From NCBI RefSeq assembly GCF_019278565.1, contig NZ_CP058988.1, forward strand, positions 3,844,001-3,908,000: DNA of 64,000 nucleotides, read 5' to 3'. This DNA comes from Cellulophaga sp. HaHa_2_95 (GTDB lineage Bacteria; Bacteroidota; Bacteroidia; Flavobacteriales; Flavobacteriaceae). Position 1 is the stretch's first letter. Each line of letters starts with the position of its first letter. Below, one piece after another: positions 23,262 through 55,280 of the stretch. Under the pieces are notes generated by a model, which did no database searches, had not been told where the DNA came from, and saw only the letters and a program-made list of their open reading frames with translations. A program made the translations under genes and the position numbers.

Positions 23262-23322
23262 TAAAGTTCGATAATATCCGATTTTCTGAAGATAGCAAAT
23301 GATTTAAAAGCTAGAACATATG
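23262..23322 (-). promoter_or_regulatory. Candidate HTCS-controlled promoter of the L-galactose operon
   Basis: On the minus strand half-site CATATGTTC begins at 23322 and CATTTG begins 21 bases later at 23301. After the same 26-base gap seen at other sites, GAACTTTA (23269-23262) occupies the -7 position, a poor match to TAnnTTTG (A and TTT kept). Confidence 0.5.
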
Positions 23323-23438
23323 TATAGATTCTTAATCCTACACAGGGCCAATAAAATCTCAACACACTAATAAACAAGTGTTTAAAAATTAAGTCTATCA
23401 ATGCACTTAAAAATTAACAGAAAGTCTTTATTTGTATT

Positions 23439-24467
23439 TTATTTTAAAGCAACTTTTAAGATATAATCATCGGCGGTTAAGAATAATTGAGACTCATCTG
23501 TAGCCAGAGCACAATTCGCAGTTAATAATCCAGTATGGATTCTAGCGATTACAACTCCATCAGGATTAAAAATCCAAACACCATCTGGGCCAGTAGCAAA
23601 CAGATATCCTTCTTGATTTGTTTTCATCCCATCTGGCAATCCTTTATGTTTTTTATCACGATCTAGAGCAGTAACATCATAAAATATTTTTTTTTCAGTC
23701 ACTATTCCCGGCTGCACAACAGTATAAGAATACCAAGCTGCCTTTTCAGGGTCAGAAGCCGCTACATAAAGTGTTTTCTGATCAGGTGATAGTGTAATTC
23801 CATTAGGATACTTTATGTCTCTATCAAGTACTATTAGTTTTCCAGAAGCCAACAAACAATAAACACCCTGAAAATCTAACTCTTTTGTAACATCGTTTAT
23901 TCCATTAGGCAAACCATAAGGAGGGTCTGTAAAATAAAGGTTCCCGTGGGCATCAAATACTCCGTCATTAGGACTATTTAATTTTTTGCCCTCAAACCTA
24001 TCAATAATCATTTCATAACGCTCTTTTGGAGCATTCATAGGTGCCTTCATTCTAGCAATTCGTCTTTCCCCCTGTTGCATCAAAATCAGTTCATCCTTAT
24101 AATACATCAACGCATTAGAACCGGCTTCTTTTCCTGTATAATTCTTTACATCACTTCCTGACGGATGCAAATAAACATGCGTTTTTCCTTGAGCATCAAT
24201 CTTAAAAACTTTACTATTTGGAATATCTGAAAACAAAAGATAATCTCCATTTTCTATATACAATGGCCCCTCCGTCCACGTAAAACCACCTGCCAGAATT
24301 TCTATACTACTGTGTTTATCTATAACCAAATTACCTTCCTCGGTTAAGATTTCTATAGAGAAATTAGCGGCTAACACACTTTTGTAACCAACTACGGCTT
24401 CTTTTTTAATTTTACAACTAGAAAGGATGATAAAGACAATAACTACACTTATACTTTTAGGAAACAC
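23439..24467 (-). CDS. SMP-30/gluconolactonase-family lipoprotein
   Basis: A 342-residue six-bladed propeller lactonase with lipoprotein signal (LSSC, Cys18), so it acts outside the cytoplasm. Family motifs include EGPLYIENGDYLLFSDIPNSKVF (metal-binding Glu near the start of the domain), LNSPNDG and YPNGITLSPD. Likely hydrolyses an aldonolactone such as D-galactonolactone. It is 29 bases downstream of a galactonate-dehydratase-like gene and the pair is joined to a galactonate/hexuronate-type transporter, suggesting that sugar acid is made outside, imported and dehydrated. Substrate unproven. Confidence 0.83.
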   Translation of the reverse strand: MFPKSISVVIVFIILSSCKIKKEAVVGYKSVLAANFSIEILTEEGNLVIDKHSSIEILAGGFTWTEGPLYIENGDYLLFSDIPNSKVFKIDAQGKTHVYLHPSGSDVKNYTGKEAGSNALMYYKDELILMQQGERRIARMKAPMNAPKERYEMIIDRFEGKKLNSPNDGVFDAHGNLYFTDPPYGLPNGINDVTKELDFQGVYCLLASGKLIVLDRDIKYPNGITLSPDQKTLYVAASDPEKAAWYSYTVVQPGIVTEKKIFYDVTALDRDKKHKGLPDGMKTNQEGYLFATGPDGVWIFNPDGVVIARIHTGLLTANCALATDESQLFLTADDYILKVALK

Positions 24468-24496
24468 TTGATTTATTTTGAGTTATATTTTCTGTT

Positions 24497-25657
24497 TTAC
24501 CAATTTGTGAAAGAACCATCACTACAGTGTAGTCTAGGAATTTCTACCGGAACAAACTCTGATTGCGCCGCCAAATCTTCATTGAATTCTACACCTAAAC
24601 CGGGCATATCTAGAACTTTATACCGAGACCCTTCTAATGTGTGTTGTAATGGATAGTACTCCGGAGCATTAGTACCCATGTATTGTGCTGGCGTATTTAC
24701 CTCTTCTAACCAACTAAAATTAGAGCATGCTGCCCCCAAATGAATGGATGCTGCCGTACAAATAGGCCCTAACGGGTTATGTGGCATTAGATCAATATAG
24801 TGAGACTCTGCCATTGCCGCCACTTTCATTGCTTCCGTTATTCCGCCGACATTGCAAATATCAAGGCGTACATATTGTGTAATATTCTTCTCTATAAAAG
24901 GTACAAATTGCCATTTGCTTGAAAATTCTTCACCTATAGTGAAAGGTACTGTTGTGAGCTTACGGAGACTTTCATAAGCCTCTGGGCTCTCATCTCTAAT
25001 AGGTTCTTCTATAAAATCTATTGTTCCCACTGGCATCTTGCTGATAAATGAATACGTCTCTGCTGCATTTAAGCGTGTATGATAATCAATACCTAAAGTA
25101 ATTTGAGAACCAATCTCTTTTCTTAAATCGATAAGCCAATCTGATAATAAGGCTATTGATTTTCTAGCTTCAAAAAGACCTTTATCTTCTTGTGATTCAA
25201 ACTCTGCAGGTGCCAACCGAAGCATTGTCCACCCTTCTTTAACCAATAACAGTGAGTAATCAAATAACTCTTCTCTCGTGGTAAAACGTACGGATGCAAA
25301 ACAGTCTACATAATCGCGTTGTTTTCCTCCTAATAATTCATAAACAGGAACCCCTAAAGCTTTACCTTTAATATCATATAAAGCAATATCTATTGCCGAT
25401 ATAGCAGCAGCCAATACACGACCGCCTTCAAAATACTGACCTCTATACATCTCTTGCCAAAGTGCTCCAATTTGCCTCGCATCCTTACCAATTAAAAAAG
25501 GTTTAAAATGCTGAATAGCTCCCACAACAGCAAGTTCACGCCCTGATAATCCAGAAGCACCCCAGCCATATATACCTGAATCTGTCTCCACCTTTACTAC
25601 CAATTGGCTCCCAGACCCGACATTTATGGGGTAGGTTTTTATATCTTTTATTTTCAT
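24497..25657 (-). CDS. dgoD: Enolase-superfamily sugar-acid dehydratase, D-galactonate dehydratase-like
   Basis: A 386-residue mandelate-racemase-group enzyme. Metal ligands are in LGIDYHTRL, IDFIEEP and TIGEE, and MPHNPLGPICTAASIHL provides the C-terminal catalytic His, a pattern of the galactonate dehydratase group. It would convert D-galactonate to 2-keto-3-deoxy-D-galactonate in the cytosol. It lies 12 bases after a DgoT/ExuT-like MFS gene and upstream of a secreted lactonase. Other aldonates (L-fuconate, gluconate) remain possible; it is clearly a different subgroup from the cycloisomerase at 11236. Confidence 0.8.
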   Translation of the reverse strand: MKIKDIKTYPINVGSGSQLVVKVETDSGIYGWGASGLSGRELAVVGAIQHFKPFLIGKDARQIGALWQEMYRGQYFEGGRVLAAAISAIDIALYDIKGKALGVPVYELLGGKQRDYVDCFASVRFTTREELFDYSLLLVKEGWTMLRLAPAEFESQEDKGLFEARKSIALLSDWLIDLRKEIGSQITLGIDYHTRLNAAETYSFISKMPVGTIDFIEEPIRDESPEAYESLRKLTTVPFTIGEEFSSKWQFVPFIEKNITQYVRLDICNVGGITEAMKVAAMAESHYIDLMPHNPLGPICTAASIHLGAACSNFSWLEEVNTPAQYMGTNAPEYYPLQHTLEGSRYKVLDMPGLGVEFNEDLAAQSEFVPVEIPRLHCSDGSFTNW

Positions 25658-25669
25658 AACTGTAAATTC

Positions 25670-26980
25670 TTAATTCTTTGGTCTAGAAACAATACGTTCT
25701 ACCTTGCCTACTATAAAAGTGTAACTTATGAAACCTAGCAAAGCTATAGCTCCGATAAAAAACAAAGCAGGTTTAAAATCTCCATCCTTAACTAAGTATC
25801 CTATAATAACAGGCACAACAATACCTGCCAAACCACCTATAAAATTAAACGCACCACCCGTAAGACCTATAAGTTTTTTAGGTGCCATTAAGGAGATAAA
25901 TACCCAGGCAATACTGGCCAAACCATTTCCAAAAAATGCAATGGATAAAAATAAGATCACTAGAAACGTATCATCCGTATAGTTTGCCCCTATAATTGCT
26001 GTAGAAAGCAACATACCACATATGATAGGCAGCTTACGCGCTATCTCAACGGTATAGCCTCTTTTTATTAAAAAATCTGAAGTAAACCCAGATAATAACA
26101 CGCCAAAAAATGCTGCTAAAAAAGGAATAGATGCCAAAAACCCTGACTCAAGAAAATCTAGACCTCTATATTTTACCAAATACGTTGGAAACCAGGTTAA
26201 AAAAAATATGATAATAGTTCCTAAGCAGAATTGCCCAATATATAACCCCCATAGCTTCCGATAGGAAAACACTTCTCTTAAATCTGACCAACTAAACTTT
26301 TCTACTTTCTCCTTTTTGTCAGTGTCGGGCACTCCGTCTATCAACCCACCTCCTTCAGCGATATAGTCTATTTCTTCTTGATTCATGGTTGCATGCTCTT
26401 TAGGATCTCTATATAAAACATACCACAAAATAGCCCAAACCAAACCAACAGCTCCTGAAACATAAAATAATCCCCGCCAACCTAGATACGTCTGAATAGC
26501 CGTCAAAACTGGTGTTAGAAATGCAAGCCCCAAAAATTGACCTGAAGTATAAATTGCAATGGCAGACGCGCGCTCTTTTTCAGGAAACCAGCGGGTAACA
26601 ATAACATTGTTCGTTGGATAAGAAGGTGCCTCAAAAACACCTATAGTAGCCCTTAACCCTAACAAGCTTACAAAAGAATTAGCCATTCCCTGAACCAAAG
26701 TAGCTATAGACCATAATGCCATAATCACCGAGTACAAAACTCTTGTCTTTATTTTATCTGCCATAAATCCTCCAGGAATTTGTAAAATAGCATAGGTCCA
26801 TGCAAAAGCAGAAAAGATAAACCCCATTTGAACAGATGATAAATCTAAATCTTCACTTAATGCAAAAGCTGCTACAGAAATATTACTCCTATCTAAATAA
26901 TTTATTACCACCGTTAAAAAAACCATAGCTAAAATGCCATATCTTTTATTCGTTTTCTTGGTGTTTTGCTCTTTTTGCAT
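25670..26980 (-). CDS. MFS sugar-acid:H+ symporter (DgoT/ExuT/GudP type)
   Basis: A 436-residue anion:cation symporter-type MFS carrier with twelve predicted segments. It has the family's first segment VVINYLDRSNISVAAFAL, QIPGGFMADKIKTR and RWFPEKERASAIAIY. Relatives import D-galactonate, hexuronates or glucarate. First gene of a three-gene unit with the dehydratase and the secreted lactonase, so a galactonate-like acid is the likely cargo. Shares a 313-base divergent region with the HTCS gene. Confidence 0.87.
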   Translation of the reverse strand: MQKEQNTKKTNKRYGILAMVFLTVVINYLDRSNISVAAFALSEDLDLSSVQMGFIFSAFAWTYAILQIPGGFMADKIKTRVLYSVIMALWSIATLVQGMANSFVSLLGLRATIGVFEAPSYPTNNVIVTRWFPEKERASAIAIYTSGQFLGLAFLTPVLTAIQTYLGWRGLFYVSGAVGLVWAILWYVLYRDPKEHATMNQEEIDYIAEGGGLIDGVPDTDKKEKVEKFSWSDLREVFSYRKLWGLYIGQFCLGTIIIFFLTWFPTYLVKYRGLDFLESGFLASIPFLAAFFGVLLSGFTSDFLIKRGYTVEIARKLPIICGMLLSTAIIGANYTDDTFLVILFLSIAFFGNGLASIAWVFISLMAPKKLIGLTGGAFNFIGGLAGIVVPVIIGYLVKDGDFKPALFFIGAIALLGFISYTFIVGKVERIVSRPKN

Positions 26981-27293
26981 CTGTTCTTTAGTATTGCTGC
27001 GCAGACCACTAAAACTTTGAAAAGTAATGAATTAGCTATCCGTAAAAATGATTTTTAATAAGTGGAAGTACAGAGGTAAGAAAAAAAATATCTAGTTTGT
27101 AGCAAACTATTTTTTAGGGACGCAACATATGTTCAAAAGACTACAACATATGGAACAAAGAAATAGAACCACCTTATTAATTCTATTTTAAAATACTAAT
27201 AATCAGCAATCTAAGTTCATAATTATAAATAGTTCGTGAACCCAAAAAATGATATAGATACATATATATCCGCAATTTGATATATTTGTTAGT
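26981..27293. other. Divergent control region between MFS and HTCS genes
   Basis: 313 bases. Contains the best-matching HTCS repeat (27123-27152), a perfect palindrome TAGTTTG-TAG-CAAACTA (27093-27109), and TATATTTG (27281-27288) immediately before the HTCS start. If the last is the real -7 box, the HTCS transcript would start at or next to its ATG (leaderless or nearly so). Confidence 0.55.
27123..27152. promoter_or_regulatory. Candidate HTCS operator, two CAACATATG half-sites
   Basis: CAACATATG at 27123-27131 and again at 27144-27152, exactly 21 bp (two helical turns) apart. The first copy sits in a perfect AACATATGTT palindrome, so the site fits the consensus in both directions, in keeping with its position midway between divergent genes. 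Confidence 0.6.
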
Positions 27294-30200
27294 ATGAGCT
27301 ACCCCCTTAATAATGCAAACACAAAACAAAGTATTGTCTATTTAATATGGAGTCTTTTGGTATTCATATCCCCTGCTTGTTTTGCGCAAAATTCATTAAA
27401 ATTTGAGCATTTAAATACCGAGAATGGATTATCACAAAGTGATGTAAATACCATTTTTCAAGATGACAATGGTTTTATGTGGTTTGGTACTCATGACGGA
27501 TTAAATAGATACGACGGTTATAATTTTACCGTTTTTAAACCTAATCCAGAAAATTCTCATAGTATAAGTAGCAATTTAATTTGGAAGATAATTGATGATG
27601 ACCAGGGTAATTTATGGATTGGGACTACTGGAGGTGGCCTAAATTATTTTGATAAAAAAACAGAAAAGTTCAAGAGTTTTAAGCACGATTCTAAAAATGA
27701 ATTTAGCATTATAAGTGATTATATCACCTTACTTTTTAAAGACAGTAACAACAGATTATGGGTAGGTACATCAAAAGGCATTGATATGGCCGATTTATCT
27801 AAGTCTACTGATTCGTTAAAATTTGAGCATTTTAACTTATATCAAAATAGTAAAACCCCAACAAGAAACAGTAATAACGTTAGTACTTTTTATGAAGATA
27901 GTATGCACCAAGTATGGATTGGTGGTATTAACGGACTTTCAAAATTATCCAGAGATAGCAATGGAGATATATACTTTCAAGAAGTTAACAAGCAAATAAA
28001 TTTACCCAACATTCAAGTAAGGTCTATCGTTGAAGATAGTTACGGTCATTTAATACTAGCGACAAATAATGGCCTATATCGCTACGCACCTAATGAAAAA
28101 GAAAATCAACTTCAATTTATATACAAGGGTACATTCAATACCGTTTCTATAAATAATTTTCATATTTGGGCAGGTTCAGACGACGGTCTATTAGAATTCT
28201 CCAATCTAGCAGAAGATAAAATACCTAAGTTAGTTGGCTTATATAAGTATGACCCAGAAAATCCTACCAATAGTTTAAGCAAGAACGCTGTAAAATCTCT
28301 TCACATAGACCACACCGGTATTGTCTGGGTAGGCGTTAATGGTGGCGGCATCAATAAATTTGATCCTCAAAGAAAGCAGTTTTCACATATTAAAAAAAAT
28401 CTTGAGCTAGGCAGTTTAAGCAACGATAAAATTAGAGCAATACATGAAGATAGTAATGACAATCTATGGATTGGAACAGAAGGCGGCGGACTAAATTTAC
28501 TAGGTAAAACCAATGCCACGAGTAATTTTAATGAATTTCAGCATTTTACAAAAATTAATAAAGTATTTGCTATTGAAGAGATAAAGCTCAAGAGTTCTAC
28601 CAAATTATTTGTGGGTGGCGAAAATGCACCCGGATTATTTGAAATACAATTAAATACGCATAAAAAAATCACGGATAAAGACCTCAAAGAAATCCCAGAA
28701 GTTCCTAGTAGTGTCTTTTCGATTTTACAAGACAAAGACCGGAATGTTTGGTTAGGATCATACAATGGAGGCATACAACGTTGGTTAATCAACGCAGATG
28801 GAGATAGTTTTACAAAAGATGATTTAAAACATAACCCAACTATTGAGACTAGCATTCCCAACAATATTATTAGAGATATCTATCAAGACAATAAGGGTAA
28901 CATTTGGTTTGCAACAGGTAATGGCTTAGCTAAATTACCTGTTGATCAAATTACCTCTAAGAATCCAAAATTTGTTATTTATAAGAATGTTCCTAATGAT
29001 GCGCGTACTATAAGTCATAATTATATTCTGACCGTTTTTGAAAGCAAATCTGGAGTTATCTGGGCCGGAACATTTGGTGGCGGATTAAACAAATTAATTC
29101 CCGCAACTAAAGATACGCCAGAACACTTTAAAACCTATGCTGAAAAAGATGGGCTACCCAACAATGTTATCAAAGGTATACTAGAAGATGACCATGGGAA
29201 CCTTTGGCTATCTACCAATAAAGGCCTATCAAAATTTGATATTCAACGAGAGAGTATTCAAAATTATGACGTAAATGATGGGTTACAAAGCAATGAATTT
29301 AGTGAATTAGCAGCTTTTAAAACTAAAGATGGGTTAATGCTTTTTGGTGGTATTAATGGCTTTACTGCGTTCTATCCAGAGGAGATTATTAGCAATAAAG
29401 TTATGGCTGAAACTGTTTTAACAAACTTTTCCATCTTTAATAAACCCGTTGCTATAGGTGCAAAAATTAATGGTCGCATTATATTAGATCAAGCTATAAA
29501 TTCTATTGATGATATTGAATTGAAATACAGTGAGAATAGTTTTTCTTTCGAATTTGCAGCCTTACATTATGCGGCGTCTAATAAAAACAAATATGCTTAT
29601 AAACTAGATGGTTTTGATAAAGATTGGATTTATACTACTGCAGATAACAGGTTTGCTACCTACACCAACCTTGAACCAGGTTCCTACATTTTACGCGTAA
29701 AAGCGTCAAATAATGATAATATTTGGGATGAAACCCCAGTAGAACTAGAAATAAATGTTACACCTCCTTGGTGGCGTACTACTTTTGCTAAAATTATTTA
29801 TGTCCTAATGGCCATTGGACTACTACATGCCTTTAGACGATTTACAATTATTAGATCTGCAGAGAAGCATCAGCTAGAATTGGAGCATTTAGAAAATGAC
29901 AAAAATGAAGAAATTCACCGTTTAAAATTGGAGTTTTTCACCAATATCTCCCATGAGTTTAGAACTCCATTGACGCTTATTAAAGGTCCTTTAGATTACT
30001 TAATCAAAAAAGGATCAGAAATGAGCCCCAAAGAAGCAAGAGATCAATATGGTTTAATGCGTAAAAATACAAACTACCTCTTACGCCTTGTAGATCAGTT
30101 ATTGGACTTCAGAAAAATGGATCATGGAAAAATGAACCTTAATCTAAGTAAGAGTGATATTGTTGGATTTTTAAAGGAAGTGGGTGAACCTTTTCAGTTT

Positions 30201-31577
30201 TTAAGCAGAAAAAAAGAAATTAATTTTCAAATTGAAACTTCCAAGGATGCTATTGTTTCTTGGTTTGATCCTGATGCGGTTGAAAAAATTATCAATAATT
30301 TATTATCAAACGCCTTTAAGTTCACCCCTGAAAATGGAACCATCCTATTAAACATTTTTGACGGTACAGATTTTAGAAAACCAGATGATATCGCAGTAGA
30401 TATAGATCAAGACAAATACATTGTTATACAAGTAAAAGACTCTGGACCCGGAATTCCTGCGCATAGATTACAACATATTTTTGAGCGTTTCTACACAGAG
30501 ATTGGATTAACCACTCATGTAAATACGAAGGGGACAGGTATTGGACTATCTTTTACTAAAAACTTAGTAGAGCTACATCAAGGAATTATAAAAGTAAAAA
30601 GTGATTCTGAAAATGGCTCTACCTTCTTTGTATGGCTTCCTAAAGAAAAAGAAACCTTTGAAGCTAGTAAAGAAATAAACTTTCATGAAGTTTTTGAGCC
30701 CAATACCTTCATAAGTAAAGTTGATGCTGATTCCCACGCTATTAGCTTTATGGATGATATTATAGACCAAAACATGACAAGATCTAGGTCCAAGCTACCA
30801 TTACTATTAATTGTAGACGATAATCCAGACATTAGGTCTTTTATTAAGAGAGGTCTAGGAGAAAGCTATTATATCTATGAGGCAGAGAATGGTGAAAAGG
30901 GCTTAGAATTGGCAAACAAATTTATGCCCAATATCATAATCACAGATCTTATGATGCCTGTCATGGACGGAATAGAACTTTGCAATAAACTTAAAAGTGC
31001 CAAAGAAACGAGTCATATTCCTGTTGTTATGTTAACAGCAAAGACATCACAAGAAAAGGAAATTGAAGGACTAAAAACAGGCGCAGATGCCTATATTAGA
31101 AAACCTTTTGATCTAGAGTTATTGGAACTAAAACTTTCCAATATTTTAAAAGATCGTGAAGAGTTGCGTAAAAAATTCAACAGAGAGATTACATTACAAC
31201 CAAATGAAGTAACCGTAACCTCATCTGATGAGAGCTTTTTACAAAATGCCATTGAGATTGTAGAAAAGCATATGATGAATTCAGAATTTAGTGTTGAAAT
31301 GCTAGTCAAAGAAATGAGTATGAGTAGAAGTAACTTATATTTAAAAATAAAAGAATTAACCGGACTCTCTTCTAGTGAATTTATAAGAAATATCAGATTA
31401 AAAAGAGCCGTACAACTTTTTGAAAAAAGCGATCTATCTGTAAAAGAAATTATGTACATGACTGGTTTTAATACCGCATCATACTTTTCTAAATGTTTTA
31501 AAAAACAATTTGGTGTCATCCCAAGCAAGTACATAAGACTTACCAACAATGAGGAAGGTACTACTGAGGAATCGTAA
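27294..31577 (+). CDS. Hybrid two-component system sensor/regulator (HTCS)
   Basis: A 1427-residue one-protein signalling system of the Bacteroidetes type. In order: signal peptide (ACFAQ); periplasmic propeller repeats (~30-730, repeated NGFMWFGTHDGLNRYD / GNLWIGTTGGGLN); Y_Y_Y domain (~745-825); one transmembrane segment (~826-848); HisKA with His887 in SHEFRTPLTLIKG; HATPase with NNLLSNAFKFTP and GTGIGLSFTKNL; receiver domain with Asp1218 in ITDLMMP; AraC-type helix-turn-helix (~1325-1420). Such proteins bind an oligosaccharide in the periplasm and activate the neighbouring polysaccharide locus. AraC-type domains bind direct repeats with ~21-bp spacing, which fits the CATnTG repeats found here. 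Confidence 0.95.
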   Translation: MSYPLNNANTKQSIVYLIWSLLVFISPACFAQNSLKFEHLNTENGLSQSDVNTIFQDDNGFMWFGTHDGLNRYDGYNFTVFKPNPENSHSISSNLIWKIIDDDQGNLWIGTTGGGLNYFDKKTEKFKSFKHDSKNEFSIISDYITLLFKDSNNRLWVGTSKGIDMADLSKSTDSLKFEHFNLYQNSKTPTRNSNNVSTFYEDSMHQVWIGGINGLSKLSRDSNGDIYFQEVNKQINLPNIQVRSIVEDSYGHLILATNNGLYRYAPNEKENQLQFIYKGTFNTVSINNFHIWAGSDDGLLEFSNLAEDKIPKLVGLYKYDPENPTNSLSKNAVKSLHIDHTGIVWVGVNGGGINKFDPQRKQFSHIKKNLELGSLSNDKIRAIHEDSNDNLWIGTEGGGLNLLGKTNATSNFNEFQHFTKINKVFAIEEIKLKSSTKLFVGGENAPGLFEIQLNTHKKITDKDLKEIPEVPSSVFSILQDKDRNVWLGSYNGGIQRWLINADGDSFTKDDLKHNPTIETSIPNNIIRDIYQDNKGNIWFATGNGLAKLPVDQITSKNPKFVIYKNVPNDARTISHNYILTVFESKSGVIWAGTFGGGLNKLIPATKDTPEHFKTYAEKDGLPNNVIKGILEDDHGNLWLSTNKGLSKFDIQRESIQNYDVNDGLQSNEFSELAAFKTKDGLMLFGGINGFTAFYPEEIISNKVMAETVLTNFSIFNKPVAIGAKINGRIILDQAINSIDDIELKYSENSFSFEFAALHYAASNKNKYAYKLDGFDKDWIYTTADNRFATYTNLEPGSYILRVKASNNDNIWDETPVELEINVTPPWWRTTFAKIIYVLMAIGLLHAFRRFTIIRSAEKHQLELEHLENDKNEEIHRLKLEFFTNISHEFRTPLTLIKGPLDYLIKKGSEMSPKEARDQYGLMRKNTNYLLRLVDQLLDFRKMDHGKMNLNLSKSDIVGFLKEVGEPFQFLSRKKEINFQIETSKDAIVSWFDPDAVEKIINNLLSNAFKFTPENGTILLNIFDGTDFRKPDDIAVDIDQDKYIVIQVKDSGPGIPAHRLQHIFERFYTEIGLTTHVNTKGTGIGLSFTKNLVELHQGIIKVKSDSENGSTFFVWLPKEKETFEASKEINFHEVFEPNTFISKVDADSHAISFMDDIIDQNMTRSRSKLPLLLIVDDNPDIRSFIKRGLGESYYIYEAENGEKGLELANKFMPNIIITDLMMPVMDGIELCNKLKSAKETSHIPVVMLTAKTSQEKEIEGLKTGADAYIRKPFDLELLELKLSNILKDREELRKKFNREITLQPNEVTVTSSDESFLQNAIEIVEKHMMNSEFSVEMLVKEMSMSRSNLYLKIKELTGLSSSEFIRNIRLKRAVQLFEKSDLSVKEIMYMTGFNTASYFSKCFKKQFGVIPSKYIRLTNNEEGTTEES

Positions 31578-31585
31578 ACTTAAAA

Positions 31586-31646
31586 CATTTGTTTTATTAT
31601 AAAAACCATCTGTGATTCTTAACTAAGAATAGAAATCTCAATTTTG
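31586..31646 (+). promoter_or_regulatory. Candidate HTCS-controlled promoter of the sulfatase/GH2 operon
   Basis: Half-sites CATTTGTT at 31586 and CATCTG at 31607 (21-bp spacing), then a 26-base gap to CAATTTTG (31639-31646), one mismatch from TAnnTTTG. Confidence 0.55.
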
Positions 31647-31694
31647 CTTTATAGTGATTTTTAGTACATAAGTAATTTATTGAGTTAATTATTT

Positions 31695-38894: not shown

Positions 38895-38955
38895 CATATG
38901 TGGTAAGTTTACAAACATCTCTACTGACCTACCTTTTTAAGAATAAATAATTTTA
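38895..38955 (+). promoter_or_regulatory. Candidate HTCS-controlled promoter of the second GH2/sulfatase operon
   Basis: CATATGTGG at 38895 and CATCTC at 38916 (21-bp spacing), 26-base gap, then TAATTTTA at 38948-38955, one mismatch from TAnnTTTG. The GH2 start is 26 bases further. Confidence 0.55.
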
Positions 38956-45362: not shown

Positions 45363-45583
45363 AATACCTGAACTTAATGTATAAAGCCAGTTGTTGATGT
45401 CATTAAATCATAACATAACAATCAGCCTCTAAACCATGACGTATGGTTATACAATAGAAGTATACAAAGCCTAGCTCATATTATAATTTTAAGATGTTAT
45501 GCTTTTTGCATAGCAATTATTCTAGTGAGAATAAAACTAGTAATTCTCTCGGTAAATTGACTTATCAAACAAACTATTTCAAA

Positions 45584-46450
45584 ATGAAAAAAATATATGT
45601 TGCCTTAATCTTTTGCGTTGTTTTCAACATCCCTTTAGCGGCACAAATAGATGCTCCCACAGGTAAAAAATGGATAAAAATCGATCAGCTTTCAGATGAT
45701 TTTGAAGGAGAAAAATTGAACACCAAAAAATGGGAAGCTGATCCTGAGGGTCATCCTGATTTTGGATGGATAGGACGCCCTCCTGCTCTTTTCAAAGAAA
45801 ATGCTATTACACTCAATGATGGTTTTATGGAAATTGAGGTGGGTAAATTAGAAAAAACCTTCACTAGTTTAAAATACAATACACCATCTATATACAACTA
45901 TTACGGTGGTATTGTTAGAGCTCTTCAGCCCATATCTTACGGCCATTATTTCGAATCTAGATTTAAAATGAGCAAAACTGAAATGGGAGGTGGTTTTTGG
46001 TTAATGTCTAGAAACACTTGTGGAAAAAAACATGAAATAGACATAACAGAATCTGTAGGAAGTGTATCACCTTTAGCCCAAGAGTGGGGCAAAGTTTGGG
46101 ATAAAATCATGCACTCTAATACTATATTCCGAAAAACTGATTGTAATGAAGCCACTAGAAGTCAAAATATGATGCTTCCAGAAGTTAATAATTCAGAAAA
46201 ATTTTACACGTATGGGTGTTGGTGGAAAAGTCCAACTGAACTCTTGTTTTACCTTGATGGAAAACATGTATACACCATAAAGCCACCTGTAGCCTTTGAT
46301 CAGCAACTGTTCATTCACTTCTCTATTGAAAGTTATGATTGGAATCCAATACCTGAAAATGGCGGTAAGGTTCTAAGTGCTAGCAAAGAGGATAGAACTG
46401 CATTTATTGATTATATAAGAACCTACAAATTAGTAACCAAAAAAGACTAA
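45584..46450 (+). CDS. GH16 endo-galactanase-like enzyme
   Basis: A 288-residue secreted protein (signal peptide ending PLAAQ); ATG at 45584 gives a clean signal peptide, whereas 45494 would add 30 polar residues. GH16 signature HEIDITE: Glu151, Asp153, Glu156. The rest of the fold is visible in YGHYFESRFKMSK and TPTELLFYLDGKHVYTI-like strands. Endo-hydrolase of a red-algal galactan is likely given the neighbours, but EIDITE with CGKKH does not let me name agarase, porphyranase or carrageenase. It follows a 222-base gap and may have its own promoter. Confidence 0.82.
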   Translation: MKKIYVALIFCVVFNIPLAAQIDAPTGKKWIKIDQLSDDFEGEKLNTKKWEADPEGHPDFGWIGRPPALFKENAITLNDGFMEIEVGKLEKTFTSLKYNTPSIYNYYGGIVRALQPISYGHYFESRFKMSKTEMGGGFWLMSRNTCGKKHEIDITESVGSVSPLAQEWGKVWDKIMHSNTIFRKTDCNEATRSQNMMLPEVNNSEKFYTYGCWWKSPTELLFYLDGKHVYTIKPPVAFDQQLFIHFSIESYDWNPIPENGGKVLSASKEDRTAFIDYIRTYKLVTKKD

Positions 46451-48986: not shown

Positions 48987-49019
48987 ATAGGGCTTCTTAG
49001 CTTACATAATACGGATAAT

Positions 49020-49060
49020 AATAAACTCCGCTTAGATTAGGATGCTAAGCGGAGTTTATT
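49020..49060. terminator. Bidirectional terminator between GH2 and the split sulfatase
   Basis: Perfect stem AATAAACTCCGCTTAG / CTAAGCGGAGTTTATT of 15-16 bp with a 9-base loop between convergent genes. Confidence 0.9.
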
Positions 49061-49127
49061 TTATTGAAATATGAGGCCTTAAAATTTAACTACCAGAGAG
49101 CTCATCACTCAGATTTATATTAAGCCT

Positions 49128-50743
49128 TTACTCTTTTCTTGCAATTACGTTTAATGGTTCTGGGGTTTCTGTTCTATTGATTGATGCATCATGCTCGGTC
49201 TCATGCAGATTAAATCTAGGAAGTACTTTATTTAATTCATCCCTTTCTTTTCTATGTGCTTCAGAAACTTCATTCCAATCCTTTATTTTCTTAAAACTGA
49301 TTAAATCATCGGGATTCTCACCAACGTCCCACCAATCATTTTTGCCATCTTTTAAAACAAAATCACCTCGAATAATCTGCATGTCTTTATGATAGCCATA
49401 GATCCATTCCCGATGTTTTTGTTTATCCGTAGTTAAAAAAGGCAGTAAACTCTCTCCATTAACCTCATAACTATCTGGTATTTTTACGGATGCAATTTCT
49501 GCTATCGTTGGTAACATATCAGACATATTTACTAATATATCTTGCAAGCCTTTTTTGGTCATGTTCATTCCTGGAGCGTAAATAATTAAAGGTACATGGG
49601 TTCCTTTTTGAGAAACGGGACTCCCCTTTCCATAGCCGCTTGTACCATTATCTGCACAAAAAATAAAGATAGTATTATTAGCTACCCCCATTTCCTTTAA
49701 TTTATTCATGTAACGCCAAACCTGATAATCTAAATAATTAACATGATGGTGAATACCACTTTCAGTAATGGTACCGTGGGTATCATAAACTCCCTTATCA
49801 CCCGTTACGTTTGGCTGTATTCTTGTATACGCTTTTCCATCCCAACTAATCTTTGGTGTGCCGGGCCATTTATTTTTACTATTGGGATTTAAAAAATCCA
49901 TTGCATCATGACCTAAATGACTGGTATGGTAAATAAAAAAAGGTTTTTTCTCCTTTTGTTTGCGCTCCATAAAATCGAAAATAAAATCTAATTCCACATC
50001 CGGTCCAAATGTATTTAACCCAAAAGTGTCTTTTGCCGCTTTATTATTGGGCCACCATTCTAAAGACTCAGAAGCCTTGGGGTGATTTAATAATTGCACA
50101 TGGGGTTTCCAATACCAACCAGATTGCACATAAGACGTCACTTCTACATCAGTATCTGCATTAACTATTTTTTTGACACCGTTGACTTTTCTAGTTTCCA
50201 GTCTAAAATCTGTAGTTGCTATAGGCGTATTATAAGATCCTTCACCAGGGGTAAAACAACCCTCATCAAAATTAAAACCTTCAATTTTCATTTGTGTTTT
50301 CCCTGCCCAGTAGGTCGCATACCCCCTTTATTAGCAATATCTTCTAGTGTATAGGCAGCGCTATCGTACAGGTTCCAGCTTCCTTTTTGGTCAGGTGCTT
50401 TTCCTTTATCGCTATTATGCCACCACTTGTGCTGGTGTGCATACCTGCCCGTCATCATCATAGCTCTACTCGGAGAACATATGGTAGCAGCCCAAGCTGT
50501 TTTTACATAGATTCCTTCTTCTGCCAAATGATTTAAAACAGGAGTTTGGGCTCGGTATTGCATATCTGAAGTATCGCCCCCTTTAGGTACGCTCCATACT
50601 GAGGAGCCATAAATAGGTAATTCTCTAGCACTAATATCATCGGCATAGAGTAAAATAATATTAGGCTTCTCTTGAGCAATACTCTGTTGTACAATCACTA
50701 AAAAAAATCCAAAAATGGCACTTCTAATAATTTCTAGTTTCAT
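49128..50743 (-). pseudogene. S1-family sulfatase interrupted by a frameshift
   Basis: The first part (50743 to ~50326, 139 residues) has a signal peptide (SIAQ), YADDIS and an intact CSPSR (Cys89), and ends in DIANKGG. Shifting by one base at the run of five C at 50322-50326 continues as [21 protein letters not shown] and joins the second frame (from ATG 50291) with CADNGTSG and a full C-terminal half. One missing base in that homopolymer accounts for the break; adding one C restores a ~538-residue sulfatase. All key motifs are present, so the gene is either recently broken or affected by a sequencing error. The domain carries an unusual insertion with [14 protein letters not shown]. Downstream of the sulfatase at 50765. 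Confidence 0.85.
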
Positions 50744-50764
50744 AGGTTCAAAAATGATGATGCG

Positions 50765-52561
50765 TTAATCTATTTGCGTTATATAAGTATAGTAAACACC
50801 GTATGATGTCTCATTTTCAATAAAATCATTAATTAGAAAAGTTTTGCCTTTTTGTAAATGCACTGTAAAAACTACTTCTTCTTCTTGAGGTTTGATGCCT
50901 TTTTCGAGTATTTGATTGGCTATAGATATCTTCGCCTTTGTTGGTGTAATTCTTTTATATTGAAATAAGTTCTTTGGGTTTTCGTGGGGCACATCCCAAA
51001 TAGCTCCAGGGCATTCTTTGGGCCACCTACGAAGGGATATTAAATAATCACCTTCTTGTTCAACATATATTGCATGAGTATTGTTGGTATTTTTCATTCC
51101 CTCTGCCACCTGTTCACATTTCCAAATACCCTCATCCTCGCCAATAGCATGTTGAATTGTAAGTTTAAGTTCTAGCTGCTCTTTAGATCCTATATGATTC
51201 AAAGGCAATTCAAAATAGGTTTTATTTGTTTTTACAGAATCTAAGAATACTTTATTTTCCTTTAGTAATTGCACAATTATTTCTGGATACTTGTCTGCTA
51301 AATTTTGGTGTTGTTGGGGGTCTTTGGTTACATCATACAATGCCGTACCATTAATCAATCGCCATTGATTTTTCATAATACATGTGCCATCTTCATCATA
51401 AGGTGGTCTCCAATCTTGACGATTGTGTAGAAAAATAGTGCGATTAGAAGCTAAGGACTCTTTGGACAAAATGGATGATGAAAAATCAAGTCCGTCTAAT
51501 GGTGTGCTTTCAGGTACATTTAAATGACATAATGCAGCCAATGTGGGTATTAAATCTACATGCGCAGCAATTGTATTTACATCTCTTCCCCCTGCTATCT
51601 TACCCTCAGGCCAACGAATAAAAAACGGTACACGGTGGCCACCTTCTTCTTTATCACCTTTTATACCCCTGTAGCCTTTGTTATAGCCAAACTTACCGTC
51701 TCTACTATATCCAAATCTAGTACCATTATCACTCATAAAGATAAGAATGGTATTTTCTAACAAATTTTGTTCCTCTAAATACTGGTGGAATTTGCCAAAA
51801 TTTTCATCTATACTGGCGATCATACCATAAAGATTTGCACTACTAATTTCTTTACCTTCTAATTTCTTATAAGGCTCTGCATATTTTTCTGCAACAATTA
51901 AAGGGTCATGTGGTGCATTTAAAGGCAAGTAAACAAAAAATGGGTTCTCTTTATTTTGACCAATAAAACGTGTCGCTTCTTCAAACCATACATCTGTACA
52001 ATAGCCTTCAAATTGTTTTGGCTGATTATTTACATAATACACATCATCAAAATAACTATTACCCCAATAATCTGACAATTCTCCAATACCACCGGCAAGA
52101 TGGTGTATAGCCGTATCAAAACCAGTGTCTGTAGGTCTTGACGGAAAGTTATCGCCTAAGTGCCATTTTCCAAATAAGCCTGTTTTATACCCATTCGCCT
52201 TAAAAATATCAGCTATAGTAATAGCATCTTCAGACAAGGCATCTCTTCCTTTAAACGTTGCCCAAGTCCCATTATTAATAGGATACTGCCCTGTCATTAG
52301 TGCGGCTCTCGTTGGGGTGCATAACGGACTCACATGAAAATCGGTCATGCGTACAGCTTCCTTATAAAAAGCGTCTATTTTCGGTGTTTTTAGCCACGGA
52401 TTACCCTGACACCCTAAATCTCCAATACCTAAATCATCTGCTAAAATTAGAATGACATTAGGAGGATTCTCTTTATTTTTTTGCATCGAAAACCCCGAAA
52501 AAAAAGTTATAAAGATTAGTAGTCCCATTAATTTATGGCTCATATCTATTTTAAATTTCAT
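50765..52561 (-). CDS. S1-family sulfatase with CTPTR motif and C-terminal extension
   Basis: A 598-residue secreted sulfatase with ADDLGIGD, CTPTR (Cys81), FGKWHLGDNFP and MSDNGT, plus a C-terminal beta-rich module (GDYLISLRRWP). It shares architecture and motif variants with the sulfatase at 41877 and is a paralogue. It starts 6 bases after the BNR-protein stop, hence one transcription unit with it. Confidence 0.9.
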   Translation of the reverse strand: MKFKIDMSHKLMGLLIFITFFSGFSMQKNKENPPNVILILADDLGIGDLGCQGNPWLKTPKIDAFYKEAVRMTDFHVSPLCTPTRAALMTGQYPINNGTWATFKGRDALSEDAITIADIFKANGYKTGLFGKWHLGDNFPSRPTDTGFDTAIHHLAGGIGELSDYWGNSYFDDVYYVNNQPKQFEGYCTDVWFEEATRFIGQNKENPFFVYLPLNAPHDPLIVAEKYAEPYKKLEGKEISSANLYGMIASIDENFGKFHQYLEEQNLLENTILIFMSDNGTRFGYSRDGKFGYNKGYRGIKGDKEEGGHRVPFFIRWPEGKIAGGRDVNTIAAHVDLIPTLAALCHLNVPESTPLDGLDFSSSILSKESLASNRTIFLHNRQDWRPPYDEDGTCIMKNQWRLINGTALYDVTKDPQQHQNLADKYPEIIVQLLKENKVFLDSVKTNKTYFELPLNHIGSKEQLELKLTIQHAIGEDEGIWKCEQVAEGMKNTNNTHAIYVEQEGDYLISLRRWPKECPGAIWDVPHENPKNLFQYKRITPTKAKISIANQILEKGIKPQEEEVVFTVHLQKGKTFLINDFIENETSYGVYYTYITQID

Positions 52562-52567
52562 TGAGTG

Positions 52568-55195
52568 TTACTCGTTCAACCAAGGTTCTTTACTTTCATT
52601 TAAATAGGTAATGAACCAACCACTACCCCAGCCTGCTGCCCAAAGCACATTTTCATTATAGGGATCTGGTTTTACATCTACCATTTTATCGGGTTGCCCT
52701 AGACCCTTATTTATTTTATTCCAATTTTTACCTGCATCCGTCGAAAGATAAATCCCCGGATTCTTAAAATTATCTGCCATAGATATTGGTTGACTTGCGA
52801 CACTTATCACTAATAACTCTGGTTTAACAGGTGATGATTCTACCTGCCACACAAAAGGAGCTTTAAACAGCTGCTGCCATTTCTTTCCTTTATTTTTACT
52901 TCGCCATACACCGCCTTCTTCATAACTACCCGTACGGCGCCCCGTAGCGATGTAGAAATATCCATTATGGCGGTCAATAAAAATAGAATTGACGGCTTTT
53001 ATTTCTGAAGGGAGTGTCATTTTCTTCCAAGTACTGCCTTTATCGGTAGTGCTGTAGAGTCCGCCATTAGCATCGTTCACAGCAGCATATAAGTTATTCG
53101 AATTTTGTGGATCCATTGTTATTCTGCGCACACTAGCATTTTTATGAAAACCTGTATTATTTAATTCCCAAGTATATCCTCCATCAAAAGAACGATAAAA
53201 TCCATAGCCTCCTTTGGTTAATTTAGGTGCTTTACTACCTACTTCTGAAATAGGACTTTTAACCGTACAGAAATACATGTTCTCAGGATTTTCAGGATCT
53301 ATAGTTAACGAGTATTGGGTAGCTAGACCTTCCCAAGAGTTATTCGCGGCATCAAAAATAGTAGCTATATTTTCCCATGTCTTGCCAGCATCTTTACTTC
53401 TTCGAAATTTACCTCTGTGTTCTTGGCGCCACGCTAAAGAATATATTGTATTTGGATCTTTGGGGTGTACTGCAACGGTAGCGGTGGAATGTTGCCCATG
53501 ATTGCCACCATAATCCTGTACTTGACCATCTAGCTGCGTAACTGCTACTGCTTGTTTGTCTGGCCAATCTTCTAAATCTGTAGTTTGCCATAAACCATGT
53601 TCACCGCTTGCCAATAATCGTCTTTCATTAATTCCGGTTTCCAATAACATAAATCTACCAGGTAAATTACTACCTCCACGGCCTATCCATTTATTACTTC
53701 CTACAGAAGTTTCGTAATCATCTATCTGCTGCCATGTTTTACCATGATCTGATGATTTAAGGGTCTGTTGGTCTATACCGATAAATACTTCTCCTAAGGA
53801 ATTAATATTCATCATACGATTCCCTGAACGTTCCATTTCATGGTCCATATAGGTTTGCAAATGCGCAAATTCAACATTGGCACCTATAGGATTGTTTCTC
53901 CCTTGCCAATAGGCTTTATCTTTTTCACTAAGCCAATAAGATCCCTGTCTAGCGCAAGCAAACCAAGACGCACCTCCATTTTCTGTTTTCCAAACATCGC
54001 CAGCTCCAAAACTAAAATCATGCTTTTTATTGAAGGACACATAAATTTCGTCAGAATTTATGGGATTCACCACCAAACGATTGAATACCGGCAGGATCTC
54101 TGATGGTAAGTTAGTATATGTCTCTCTGGCTTCATTTTTAGAAAGATTAAACCAAAAACCAATAGTTTTATAATACCGATCTATCTCCGCCGAAAAATTA
54201 ATTTTAGTTAAATCGATTGCAAGGTTACTGGTAATATTCTCCCAAGATTTTCCGTAGTCTGTACTCTTATACACCCCTCCTATTGAGCCTACTGTATCTC
54301 CGATGGCACGATACCTTGTTTGCTCAACCAAATACAATATAAAGGTGCCTGTTTTTTCATTATAATAAGACGTAAGGTCTCTAGGTAAATTGTTGGGCAA
54401 ACCTTCATGGCTCTCATGCCAATCTACACCGCCATTAGTACTGGTATAAAACCCGTAATTTGTGGCTATAAAAATGGTCCTTGGATTTGTTGGGTGATAG
54501 ATAATTCTGCCCACATCTAAGTCTTTTGAAATATCTGAGGCTATTTTAGACCAGGTTTTTCCGGCATCAACTGTTTTTAAAATATAGCCATAACTAGCGC
54601 GGTCATTAAGAGTTCCGTGAGGATTAGCTAAACTTCTATGATTATCTTTAATATTCCAAAAATCTCCCGCACCAATTAACCATTCATCATCATTTTTAGG
54701 ATGGATAGCTATTTTGGTATGCGCATTACTAGGATGTTTGCCTTCTATTCTTGGAATCTGATAAATTGAATGCCAATTTCTTCCTCGATCCTTAGACGTA
54801 TATACCACTCCACGACGTTCTATAGCTACGCCAAAATCAGGGTTTTGCTTAGAAAAAACAATATCCAACACGCGTTCCATATCAAAACCACTCCCGTCAG
54901 AATCTTTTAAGGTATGCCAAGACTTTGCTCCGTCCCAGGTGCCATAACTTACGTGCATATCTGGTCCCATAAACATGGTTTCTGGATCTGAAGGATGTGT
55001 CCAAAACTCTTCATTGTAACCAGACATTCCTGGTCCAAAATTTTTCCAAACTACCGTTGAATCCGATATAACCTTTTCTGTTTTTATCTGTTCAAAAAAA
55101 GATTTATTAGTAGCAGATTTGCTCTGTTGTGAGTTTGTAAAATTACTTGCTAAAAGCGCCATAGTGATGCAAGAAAATTTGGCAAATTTTTTCAT
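52568..55195 (-). CDS. Large BNR/Asp-box propeller protein of unknown activity
   Basis: An 875-residue secreted protein (signal peptide, SNFTNSQ) composed of Asp-box repeats: at least ten SxDxGxxW-type motifs, for example TVDAGKTW, STNGGVDW, STDYGKSW, TENGGASW, SSDHGKTW, SKDAGKTW, SFDGGYTW, STDKGSTW and STDAGKNW. Two seven-bladed propellers, as in GH74 and sortilin-like proteins, would account for the length. No GH74 or sialidase catalytic set could be confirmed by eye. It is first in an operon with sulfatases and has a well-formed HTCS-type promoter, so it is probably a real part of galactan degradation, possibly a lyase, hydrolase or binding protein. Confidence 0.8.
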   Translation of the reverse strand: MKKFAKFSCITMALLASNFTNSQQSKSATNKSFFEQIKTEKVISDSTVVWKNFGPGMSGYNEEFWTHPSDPETMFMGPDMHVSYGTWDGAKSWHTLKDSDGSGFDMERVLDIVFSKQNPDFGVAIERRGVVYTSKDRGRNWHSIYQIPRIEGKHPSNAHTKIAIHPKNDDEWLIGAGDFWNIKDNHRSLANPHGTLNDRASYGYILKTVDAGKTWSKIASDISKDLDVGRIIYHPTNPRTIFIATNYGFYTSTNGGVDWHESHEGLPNNLPRDLTSYYNEKTGTFILYLVEQTRYRAIGDTVGSIGGVYKSTDYGKSWENITSNLAIDLTKINFSAEIDRYYKTIGFWFNLSKNEARETYTNLPSEILPVFNRLVVNPINSDEIYVSFNKKHDFSFGAGDVWKTENGGASWFACARQGSYWLSEKDKAYWQGRNNPIGANVEFAHLQTYMDHEMERSGNRMMNINSLGEVFIGIDQQTLKSSDHGKTWQQIDDYETSVGSNKWIGRGGSNLPGRFMLLETGINERRLLASGEHGLWQTTDLEDWPDKQAVAVTQLDGQVQDYGGNHGQHSTATVAVHPKDPNTIYSLAWRQEHRGKFRRSKDAGKTWENIATIFDAANNSWEGLATQYSLTIDPENPENMYFCTVKSPISEVGSKAPKLTKGGYGFYRSFDGGYTWELNNTGFHKNASVRRITMDPQNSNNLYAAVNDANGGLYSTTDKGSTWKKMTLPSEIKAVNSIFIDRHNGYFYIATGRRTGSYEEGGVWRSKNKGKKWQQLFKAPFVWQVESSPVKPELLVISVASQPISMADNFKNPGIYLSTDAGKNWNKINKGLGQPDKMVDVKPDPYNENVLWAAGWGSGWFITYLNESKEPWLNE

Positions 55196-55219
55196 TTACT
55201 TTGAGACTATTTAATAGCT

Positions 55220-55280
55220 CAAAACTACTTAAGTTATTACCTATAGCCCTACTCATATGTTTTTTCCAATAGAACGTATG
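55220..55280 (-). promoter_or_regulatory. Candidate HTCS-controlled promoter of the BNR/sulfatase operon
   Basis: On the minus strand CATACGTTC begins at 55280 and CATATG begins at 55259 (21-bp spacing); after 26 bases comes TAGTTTTG (55227-55220), a perfect TAnnTTTG box, 24 bases before the BNR start codon. Confidence 0.6.

Follow-up and report, generated by a model that had tools for sequence, protein, structure and literature searches.

The window analysed here, a 64,000-nucleotide stretch of the Cellulophaga sp. HaHa_2_95 chromosome, carries a gene for a hybrid two-component system (HTCS) among sulfatase and glycoside hydrolase operons, and an earlier note on this DNA had described similar hexamer pairs, 21 bp apart, at five of its loci. 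The locus raises the question of whether these pairs form a shared operator and, if so, which protein reads it.

The element is a 27-bp direct repeat of CATNYG half-sites in a 21-bp register, found at ten promoter positions across 102 kb of the chromosome, with one weak candidate in addition; seven of these eleven sites lie inside the window (Table 1). All five previously noted sites proved real, each with the place, strand and 21-bp register that had been given, but their number was an undercount by roughly half. The additional promoter sites comprise one in the window (1280–1306, minus strand) and four at genome positions 3932943, 3935619, 3939090 and 3946900, all outside it. The half-site had been described as CATnTG, which holds strictly for both members of the pair at 23322 (minus), 27126 and 31586 but not at 38895 or 55280 (minus); because these two carry CATCTC and CATACG, respectively, we prefer CATNYG as the hexamer. 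The operator ending at 23322 is identical at 27/27 positions in two Maribacter loci, and the 27126 core is likewise unchanged (27/27) in two other genomes (G013 and G016). The weak candidate at 17336–17362 was detected only when a promoter box was demanded, and its gap of 26 is therefore no evidence for a promoter phase; one relative (L078) has a better site before an ORF similar in size and place, and another (L077) has a site at a similar position.

Table 1. Repeat sites, promoter boxes and the proposed regulator in the window (window coordinates).
Feature	Position	Strand	Remarks
Operator before TPR-protein gene (start ~1217, minus), then SusC/SusD-like pair	1280..1306	-	Absent from the earlier note; box gap 25
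Weak candidate before MFS gene 15940-17319	17336..17362	-	Second half CGCTTA; matrix score 10.4; TATTTTTG at gap 26
-7-like box GAACTTTA	23262..23269	-	Gap 26
Operator, L-galactose-type catabolic operon (ADH, UxaA-like, mannitol-DH-like, amidohydrolase, SDR)	23296..23322	-	Pattern search
Operator-like pair between HTCS gene and divergent MFS gene	27126..27152	.	Near-symmetric
HTCS, proposed operator reader	27294..31577	+	Pfam; PDB relatives 4a2l, 12aw
Operator, sulfatase/GH2/sulfatase/sulfatase operon beginning 31742	31586..31612	+	Pattern search, Pfam
-7-like box CAATTTTG	31639..31646	+	Gap 26
Operator, GH2/sulfatase operon beginning 38982	38895..38921	+	Second half CATCTC
-7-like box TAATTTTA	38948..38955	+	Gap 26
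-7 box TAGTTTTG	55220..55227	-	Gap 26
Operator, BNR-repeat/sulfatase operon, first gene 52568-55195	55254..55280	-	First half CATACG

A search of the 4.54-Mb genome with a pattern built from the noted sites (CATNTGTTCTA-N6-AAAACATNTG, at most three mismatches) returned 17 distinct places, ten of them in the 101.6 kb around the HTCS gene (binomial P 5e-13); the site at 38895 has four mismatches and hence lies outside these ten, and one of the ten (3926133, inside an ORF) is probably a chance match. When the four noted sites that the search finds were removed, six of the remaining 13 matches still fell in the region (P 2e-7), and the reversed control pattern gave three matches. Five of the seven outside matches overlap ORFs of at least 80 aa (4443061, 1485590, 3295672, 4069571 and 4396411). 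The match at 1577004 stands before a SusC-like gene, has a box 25 bp past the repeat and could be a genuine target at a distance; that at 3146617, which precedes an integrase/IS-type gene and is probably due to chance, was rejected as one. In the genome-wide pair count that the earlier note had called for, the loose pair alone (CATNTG-N15-CATNTG) is unspecific, with 28 occurrences against 10 for the control. All five exact matches in the genome to the composite of repeat plus box fall in this region, three of them at noted sites. Six one-mismatch matches lie outside the cluster, four of which overlap ORFs, the others preceding an ORF without a Pfam match (3242089) and a DUF1565 protein (3540832); at two mismatches there are 36 places against 18 for the control.

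For four of the noted sites a gap of 26 bases to a -7-like box had been reported, and it was found again at each. The ten promoter sites were located with no use of the box, and at eight of them a sigma-A-like -7 box begins exactly 26 bp past the repeat; at one the distance is 25 bp, and at 27126 no box stands at gap 26 in either direction. Across 52 loci of HTCS relatives, TTT[GA] occupies the phased position at 29 of 45 repeat hits (obtained with a matrix that did not include the box), against a background of 2.5%. A -33 TTTG was not found, with G at no more than 7 of 29 at operator positions 28–40. The operator lies against the -33 position or takes its place, at a fixed distance from TAnnTTTG, the arrangement of a class-II-type activator promoter of Bacteroidota; the position of the box, -12 to -5, is taken from the available portion of work on F. 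psychrophilum (PMC9723704).

The spacing was tested in turn. With the left half and the box fixed and the right half left free, CATNYG appeared at +21 in 27 of 103 cores, compared with 5 of 398 in total for seven other box distances. When both halves and the box were required, 27 cores were recovered at 21-bp spacing (six from this genome and 21 only in relatives, with 22 of 52 loci holding one) and none at any of 11 other spacings; considering only the loci of HTCS relatives, there were 22 distinct cores at 21 bp and none at another spacing between 15 and 26. A matrix scan gave 90 hits in 59 loci, against a mean of 8.1 and a maximum of 17 for column-permuted matrices. Only 18 of 46 relatives have a hit scoring at least 16 within 600 bp of the HTCS gene, and the whole-locus scan gave no hit scoring at least 13 in six of the 46 (L062, L067, L079, L081, L086 and L098). 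One of 11 distant loci was positive (L102, from Mucilaginibacter, score 19.1). The repeat is confirmed as a real element, beyond chance.

The HTCS encoded among these operons is a single polypeptide of 1427 aa in which Pfam recognizes Reg_prop, Y_Y_Y, HisKA, HATPase_c, Response_reg and AraC-type HTH_18 domains, so that sensor, histidine kinase, receiver and AraC-type HTH, the defining parts of the class, are joined in one chain. Its DNA-binding domain (DBD) is conserved well beyond its sensor (median identity 85% versus 53% over 46 HTCS relatives), and three further large HTH_18 proteins in this genome, regarded as HTCSs, have DBDs only 33–45% identical to this one. Within the genus, seven genomes that carry the HTCS (at least 77% identity) have 9–15 operator matches and ten without a listed HTCS have 0–6. 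Outside the genus such counts are noisy, with seven matches in each of three genomes without a listed HTCS (G038, G050 and G066) and one to five in some that have one. In several genera, operators stand next to the HTCS gene. The proposal that the AraC-type domain of the HTCS reads the shared operator is therefore well supported by direct orientation, adjacency, genus distribution and DBD conservation, and we consider it very probable that this HTCS uses the repeat as its activator operator in a sulfated-galactan regulon. Binding by the HTCS, activation, the ligand and the transcription starts are what we infer from features read in the sequence (operator, spacing, phase, distribution, conservation and domain make-up). 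Autoregulation from 27126 is a different matter: because that site, beside the HTCS gene, lacks a phased promoter on either strand, it is unsupported. Relatives have 25 sites close to HTCS genes, of which only two (L070 and L083) are upstream of the HTCS gene and aimed at it.

The strongest competitor for the role of reader, though an improbable one, is a separate AraC-family protein at the cluster edge (genome 3955956–3957086). This protein carries HTH_18 and is encoded some 9 kb from the last operator, and relatives of it occur in all seven genus genomes with a close HTCS. Genomes with a relative of this protein but no listed HTCS, however, have 0, 0 and 2 operator matches (G007, G035 and G067), while those with an HTCS but no listed relative have 6, 5, 10 and 6 (G006, G053, G078 and G089), a comparison in which only G078 and the two zeros are clear because background genomes reach 7. 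Operators also stand directly beside HTCS genes in 18 of 46 loci. Stops seen in relatives of the AraC-family protein may fall in an over-called N-terminal extension and were not counted against it.

We regard as still less likely an inverted-repeat reading, CATATGTTCTA-N5-TAGAACATATG, in which a protein that recognizes palindromes would bind, for instance the LacI (genome 3915983–3916993) or IclR (5486–6298) protein encoded nearby. This reading draws on the self-complementarity of CATATG, which makes the orientation of any single site less certain, on inner flanks (TTCTA and TAAAA) that are roughly complementary, and on the site at 3932943, which is nearly palindromic. Over the collected cores the orientation is nevertheless direct: when the right half was left unconstrained, the direct arrangement alone suited 18 cores, the inverted alone one, and both suited nine. 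In direct reading the variable base is the fourth of each half and the T/C position the fifth, and the flanks beyond the 27 bp correlate best at a shift of 21 among shifts of 15–27 (r 0.77 upstream, 0.47 downstream).

The motif might alternatively have spread by promoter duplication within the cluster, with no single regulator acting on it today. The cluster is large and rearranged, and a three-gene unit here parts the HTCS gene from the L-galactose-type operon, the ORFs of matching size and order directly adjoining the HTCS in a Maribacter locus (L058). Such copying is very unlikely to be the whole account, as the 26-bp gaps differ in sequence between sites while the position of the box is constant. 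Across 17 orthologous promoter pairs, moreover, identity is 85% in the core and 89% in the box, compared with 52% in the gap, 36% upstream and 41% downstream, which suggests present selection; these sites are related by descent and were picked by matrix, a bias that favours the core but not the box. Finally, chance similarity of AT-rich DNA, to which the control counts for the loose pair and the two-mismatch composite lend some colour, can be dismissed almost entirely in view of the regional clustering, the permuted-matrix scan, the spacing and phase tests and the conservation in orthologs.

If the HTCS is the reader, its propeller sensor, probably periplasmic, would detect an oligosaccharide, most likely a fragment of a red-algal galactan of agar or porphyran type that is sulfated and contains L-galactose. 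The kinase would then phosphorylate the fused receiver and free the AraC-type domain, and two monomers would bind head to tail, one per CATNYG half-site and two helical turns apart. The promoter-proximal half-site would lie at about -44 to -39, with an extension to about -34, the place expected of a -33 element; the bound dimer would therefore bring sigma-A RNA polymerase to the -7 box, which begins 26 bp beyond the repeat. The response would take in at least nine transcription units, spread over 102 kb and activated jointly, with the MFS transporter as a weaker tenth. The proposed regulon would comprise a cytoplasmic L-galactose-type pathway, two units containing SusC/D-like genes, a BNR-repeat protein, and genes for GH2, GH29 and sulfatases. 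The cluster holds SusC/D genes and relatives of anhydro-alpha-L-galactosidase, exo-alpha-L-galactosidase and alpha-L-fucosidase. No operator was detected for several cluster units, among them window 1641–14423, genome 3917211–3926864 and the minus-strand unit ending at 55371, and the GH16 and GH117-like genes of the last were therefore dropped from the regulon; the GH16 gene product (56812–58167) gave weak matches only, to laminarinases and one kappa-carrageenase.

Joint switching of uptake, depolymerisation, desulfation and L-galactose-type catabolism over about 100 kb is suggested. The analysis also yields a testable rule, CATNYG-N15-CATNYG-N26 followed by a TAnnTTTG-type box, for an HTCS regulon of marine algae-degrading flavobacteria, by which regulon members can be read from the sequence, including one firm and one weak window site that had been missed. 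In this HTCS clade, spread over many flavobacterial genera, the DBD is nearly constant and so, wherever one was found, is the phased operator, whereas sensors have diverged; paralogs within one genome follow the same pattern (DBD versus sensor identity 86% versus 60% in Zobellia uliginosa C3R17 and 82% versus 49% in Tamlana fucoidanivorans). We tentatively raise the idea, at present the less probable one, that the operator is a family-wide dialect through which several sensors would feed one common set of algal-polysaccharide promoters. If true, this would amount to signal integration, unlike the one-HTCS-one-PUL insulation that is usually assumed.

The geometry of the element resembles that of E. 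coli AraC at araI1-I2, where two AraC-type DBDs occupy half-sites 21 bp apart and the proximal one abuts the -35 region. In the present system the DBD instead forms the output end of a probable membrane hybrid kinase, and the promoters are those with the -7 (TAnnTTTG) box of Bacteroidota. In the literature that we searched, the HTCS binding motifs that came up belonged to gut Bacteroides, with no flavobacterial one among them; the operator type is already known from gut bacteria, and the present large marine example was not found in searchable papers. The carrageenan regulon of Zobellia galactanivorans, described in the accessible part of PMC5698469 as complex, likewise serves a red-algal galactan in a marine flavobacterium, but a different galactan. 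The receiver-DBD constructs of BT4124 and BT4663, which in the portion of PMC11253607 at hand were used in EMSAs on PUL promoters with predicted sites and in which receiver contact inhibits the DBD, have the same receiver plus AraC-type output layout, although these are other HTCSs acting on other promoters in gut Bacteroides. The closest parallel is provided by the HTCS operators predicted for Bacteroides thetaiotaomicron by Ravcheev et al. 2013 (PMC3878776), which, in the text available, are direct repeats with an average distance of 21 bp. Like them, the element here is a direct repeat of two conserved sites about 21 bp apart, probably for an AraC-type HTCS, lies before operons of an HTCS-encoding PUL, is kept with HTCS orthologs and would define a multi-operon regulon, which in Bacteroides includes distant genes. 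The likeness drawn here concerns layout and spacing, and the available text holds no mention of a fixed phase such as the 26 bp to the -7 box seen here. The present case differs in its host, a marine member of the Flavobacteriaceae, in its proposed extent (nine or more transcription units along 102 kb) and in its inclusion of a cytoplasmic monosaccharide pathway, whereas, as far as that text goes, only two of the reconstructed Bacteroides regulons include inner-membrane transporters and cytoplasmic kinases.

An earlier note had described a repeat with a 21-bp spacing upstream of five loci, and all five repeats were found again on re-reading the sequence. CATNTG half-sites, as first proposed, are present at three of them; the other two require a looser hexamer (the second half is CATCTC at 38895, and the first is CATACG at 55280). 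We scanned the genome (4.54 Mb, a single contig, of which the window covers bases 3844001–3908000) with a pattern derived from the earlier core, CATNTGTTCTA-N6-AAAACATNTG, allowing up to three mismatches. This gave 17 distinct places, 10 of them within genome positions 3845280–3946926 (binomial P 5e-13), against 3 for the reversed control pattern. Since the pattern was derived from the noted sites, we recounted without the four that it detects, and 6 of 13 remained (P 2e-7) in the cluster, the ∼102-kb region carrying operators around the gene of a hybrid two-component system (HTCS). Nine of the ten cluster matches stand before genes; the match at genome position 3926133 lies within an ORF, is probably due to chance and was excluded as an operator. 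Adding site 38895, which has four mismatches to the pattern, brings the set to ten promoter-located sites and thus extends the sharing of the repeat among promoters beyond the five originally noted.

Predicted operators of the cluster and other features discussed (window coordinates unless marked genome)
Feature	Coordinates	Strand	Genes behind operator, or description
Operator	1280		TPR gene, then SusC/D-like genes
Operator	23322	-	L-galactose-type pathway
Operator	27126		
Operators	31586 and 38895		sulfatases and GH2
Operator	55280	-	BNR-repeat protein and sulfatases
Operator	genome 3932943		279-aa protein, no Pfam match
Operator	genome 3935619		GH29
Operator	genome 3939090		sulfatase, then apiosidase-like gene
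Operator	genome 3946900		SusC/D-like genes
Weak eleventh candidate	17336-17362		second half CGCTTA; matrix score 10.4
Distant operator-like site	genome 1577004-1577030	+	SusC-like gene
HTCS gene	27294-31577	+	
AraC-family ORF	genome 3955956-3957086	+	376 aa; edge of cluster
Intervening unit	23439-26980	-	MFS, enolase-like and gluconolactonase; three genes
Inverted repeat	27093-27109		TAGTTTG-TAG-CAAACTA, perfect
Split sulfatase	49128-50743	-	ORFs of 151 and 387 aa, 4-base overlap
318-aa protein	45494-46450	+	no Pfam match
318-aa protein	59513-60469	-	no Pfam match

Because CATATG is its own reverse complement, the orientation of the repeat was tested with one half left free. Fixing the left hexamer and the promoter box (a sigma-A-like -7 element, TAnnTTTG) gave 103 distinct cores from this region and 52 loci of HTCS relatives, and 27 of these carry CATNYG at +21; the same test at seven other box distances gave 5 of 398 in total. 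When both hexamers and the box were required, 27 cores were recovered at a spacing of 21 (6 present in this genome and 21 in relatives only, with at least one in 22 of the 52 loci) and none at any other spacing from 15 to 26, as was likewise the case for the relatives alone. Eighteen of the 27 match the direct form only and nine also match the inverted form; one core matches the inverted form only. The flanks outside the scoring matrix, compared at shifts of 15–27, correlate most highly at 21 (0.77 upstream, 0.47 downstream), and the extended half-site approximates AAAACATNTGTTNTA. By these sequence comparisons, the operator is a direct and not an inverted repeat.

At eight of the ten sites, exactly 26 bp separate the 27-bp core from the start of the box (one of these boxes, GAATTTCG at 3935619, being imperfect), and at window position 1280 the gap is 25 bp; site 27126 has no box at the phased distance. 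Genome-wide, the composite of repeat and box is matched exactly at five places, each of which falls in the cluster and three of which are originally noted sites. A further eight places have one mismatch (two in the cluster) and 23 have two (four in the cluster), for a total of 36 against 18 for a control. A matrix trained on the ten sites of this genome, with the box left out, gave 45 matches scoring at least 16 in the 52 loci, and TTT[GA] occupies the phased position in 29 of them, against a background of 2.5% at other positions. PMC9723704 places the F. psychrophilum sigma-A box at -12 to -5; on that scale the operator would span -65 to -39, with one hexamer at -65 to -60 and the other at -44 to -39. 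A -33 TTTG element is not visible: among 29 sites that, this genome's own excepted, were picked for having the box, no position from 28 to 40 has G in more than 7. Since F. johnsoniae likewise lacks it (PMC7366714), its absence is a weaker sign of activator dependence here than in Bacteroides.

The weak eleventh candidate surfaced only in a search requiring the box; it has a stronger counterpart in C. fucicola (L078), upstream of an ORF comparable in size and place, and another in C. omnivescoria (L077), where the position is likewise similar. An operator-like site some 2.3 Mb away (locus L017), with TGAATTTG at a gap of 25, is a possible distant regulon member.

We compared 17 orthologous promoter pairs (sites 23322, 31586 and 38895 against Maribacter, Algibacter, Tamlana, Lutibacter and other Cellulophaga). 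Identical bases numbered 391/459 for the core, which is favoured by the choice of sites with the matrix. The box (121/136), the gap (232/442) and the sequences upstream (183/510) and downstream (278/680) were not under that selection; gap length was constant throughout. In two Maribacter strains, all 27 positions of the operator preceding the L-galactose-type operon are as in this genome, and of the 26 gap bases each strain shares only 12. Maribacter L058 carries, directly divergent from the HTCS, ORFs that correspond to this operon in order and, approximately, in size (the criterion used). Here a three-gene unit separates operon and HTCS; by ORF layout it is missing from that place in L058 and C. 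fucicola L078, and the operator stayed beside the L-galactose-type operon. A perfect inverted repeat in the interval between the MFS and HTCS genes, at a distance of 16 bp from the 27126 operator, differs by one base in the G016 copy (L031) and is possibly another regulator's operator.

The HTCS contains the complete domain set of such proteins and is 98% identical in Cellulophaga baltica DSM 24729, the closest named relative listed. Relatives occur in 16 of 149 genomes (E up to 1e-300) and in 78 named loci, some distant. Across 59 of these loci, including the near-identical C. baltica locus, the matrix has 90 matches scoring at least 13; 20 column-permuted matrices averaged 8.1 and never exceeded 17. 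Of 46 relatives, 18 have a match of at least 16 no more than 600 bp from the HTCS gene, and six have no match of at least 13 anywhere in the locus; of 11 distant loci (at most 35% identity), only Mucilaginibacter L102 has a match (score 19.1) and ten have none. Within the genus, the pattern is matched 9–15 times in each of seven genomes with a close HTCS, 6 times in one with a 57% relative and 0–6 times in ten without a listed HTCS (Mann-Whitney P 3e-4 for the seven against the ten, these being related genomes with symmetric sites counted on both strands); across the family beyond the genus, counts are noisy.

An AraC-family protein encoded at the edge of the cluster, with relatives in 15 of 149 genomes, might instead read the operator. 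Genomes with such a relative and no listed HTCS have 0, 0 and 2 operator matches, whereas those with the HTCS and no listed AraC relative have 6, 5, 10 and 6; as background genomes reach 7, only G078 (10) and the two zero-match genomes speak clearly. Operators, moreover, adjoin HTCS genes in the 18 relatives mentioned. Genome distribution and operator position together favour the HTCS, and the earlier proposal that it reads a shared operator is supported as a prediction, amended in that there are about twice as many sites as noted and that the one next to the HTCS gene lacks the phased box. The AraC-family ORF runs into the first part of a divergent ORF of 1084 aa; because relatives in several genomes have stops in the aligned frame, and stop-free ones align from about residue 85 only, its N-terminal part is probably over-called.

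The DNA-binding domain (AraC-type, HTH_18) of the 46 relatives has a median identity of 85% to that of this HTCS (minimum 75), and median identities of the other parts are 53% (sensor), 58.5% (kinase) and 69.5% (receiver). The DNA-binding domains of the three other large HTH_18 proteins of this genome, counted as HTCSs by size, are 33, 41 and 45% identical. We regard it as possible, if rather doubtful, that many HTCSs whose sensors differ, including ones encoded in the same genome, share one operator dialect. In Zobellia russellii (L119, 10001–10438), a 75% identity match is limited to HTCS residues 1276–1421, apparently a similar DNA-binding domain on a different or shorter upstream part.

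The likely target of the cluster is an agar/porphyran-type galactan containing L-galactose. The GH29 is close to the exo-alpha-L-galactosidase 7ljj (E 5e-124), with the alpha-L-fucosidase chain 7snk matching marginally better. No operator was detected for several cluster units, including window 1641–14423, the minus unit ending at 55371 and genome 3917211–3926864. In the minus unit just named, the gene at 55371–56741 has a close match in the conserved lipoprotein 4u6b (E 1e-223) and a more distant relative in the anhydro-alpha-L-galactosidase 4ak5 (E 1e-59; family GH117); the GH16 at 56812–58167 has weak matches only, to laminarinases and kappa-carrageenase. One sulfatase is apparently split into two ORFs, one aligning with the N-terminal part of the Pfam sulfatase model and the other with a later part, and appears to be a frameshift or a decayed gene. 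The two 318-aa proteins, encoded in CAZyme/sulfatase units, are candidate new families.

Direct-repeat HTCS operators are of a known kind. The motifs that Ravcheev et al. 2013 (PMC3878776) predicted for 16 HTCSs of B. thetaiotaomicron are without exception direct repeats; their distance averages 21 bp, a spacing that the Cellulophaga operator shares. According to PMC11253607, two HTCS receiver–DNA-binding domain proteins were later examined by EMSA with promoters containing predicted sites. A search of open-access articles by title and opening lines returned no HTCS operator for any flavobacterium, Cellulophaga and Zobellia included. Apparently new are the marine setting and the size of this example, its extension to monosaccharide catabolism and the exact phasing of the operator to the -7 box.
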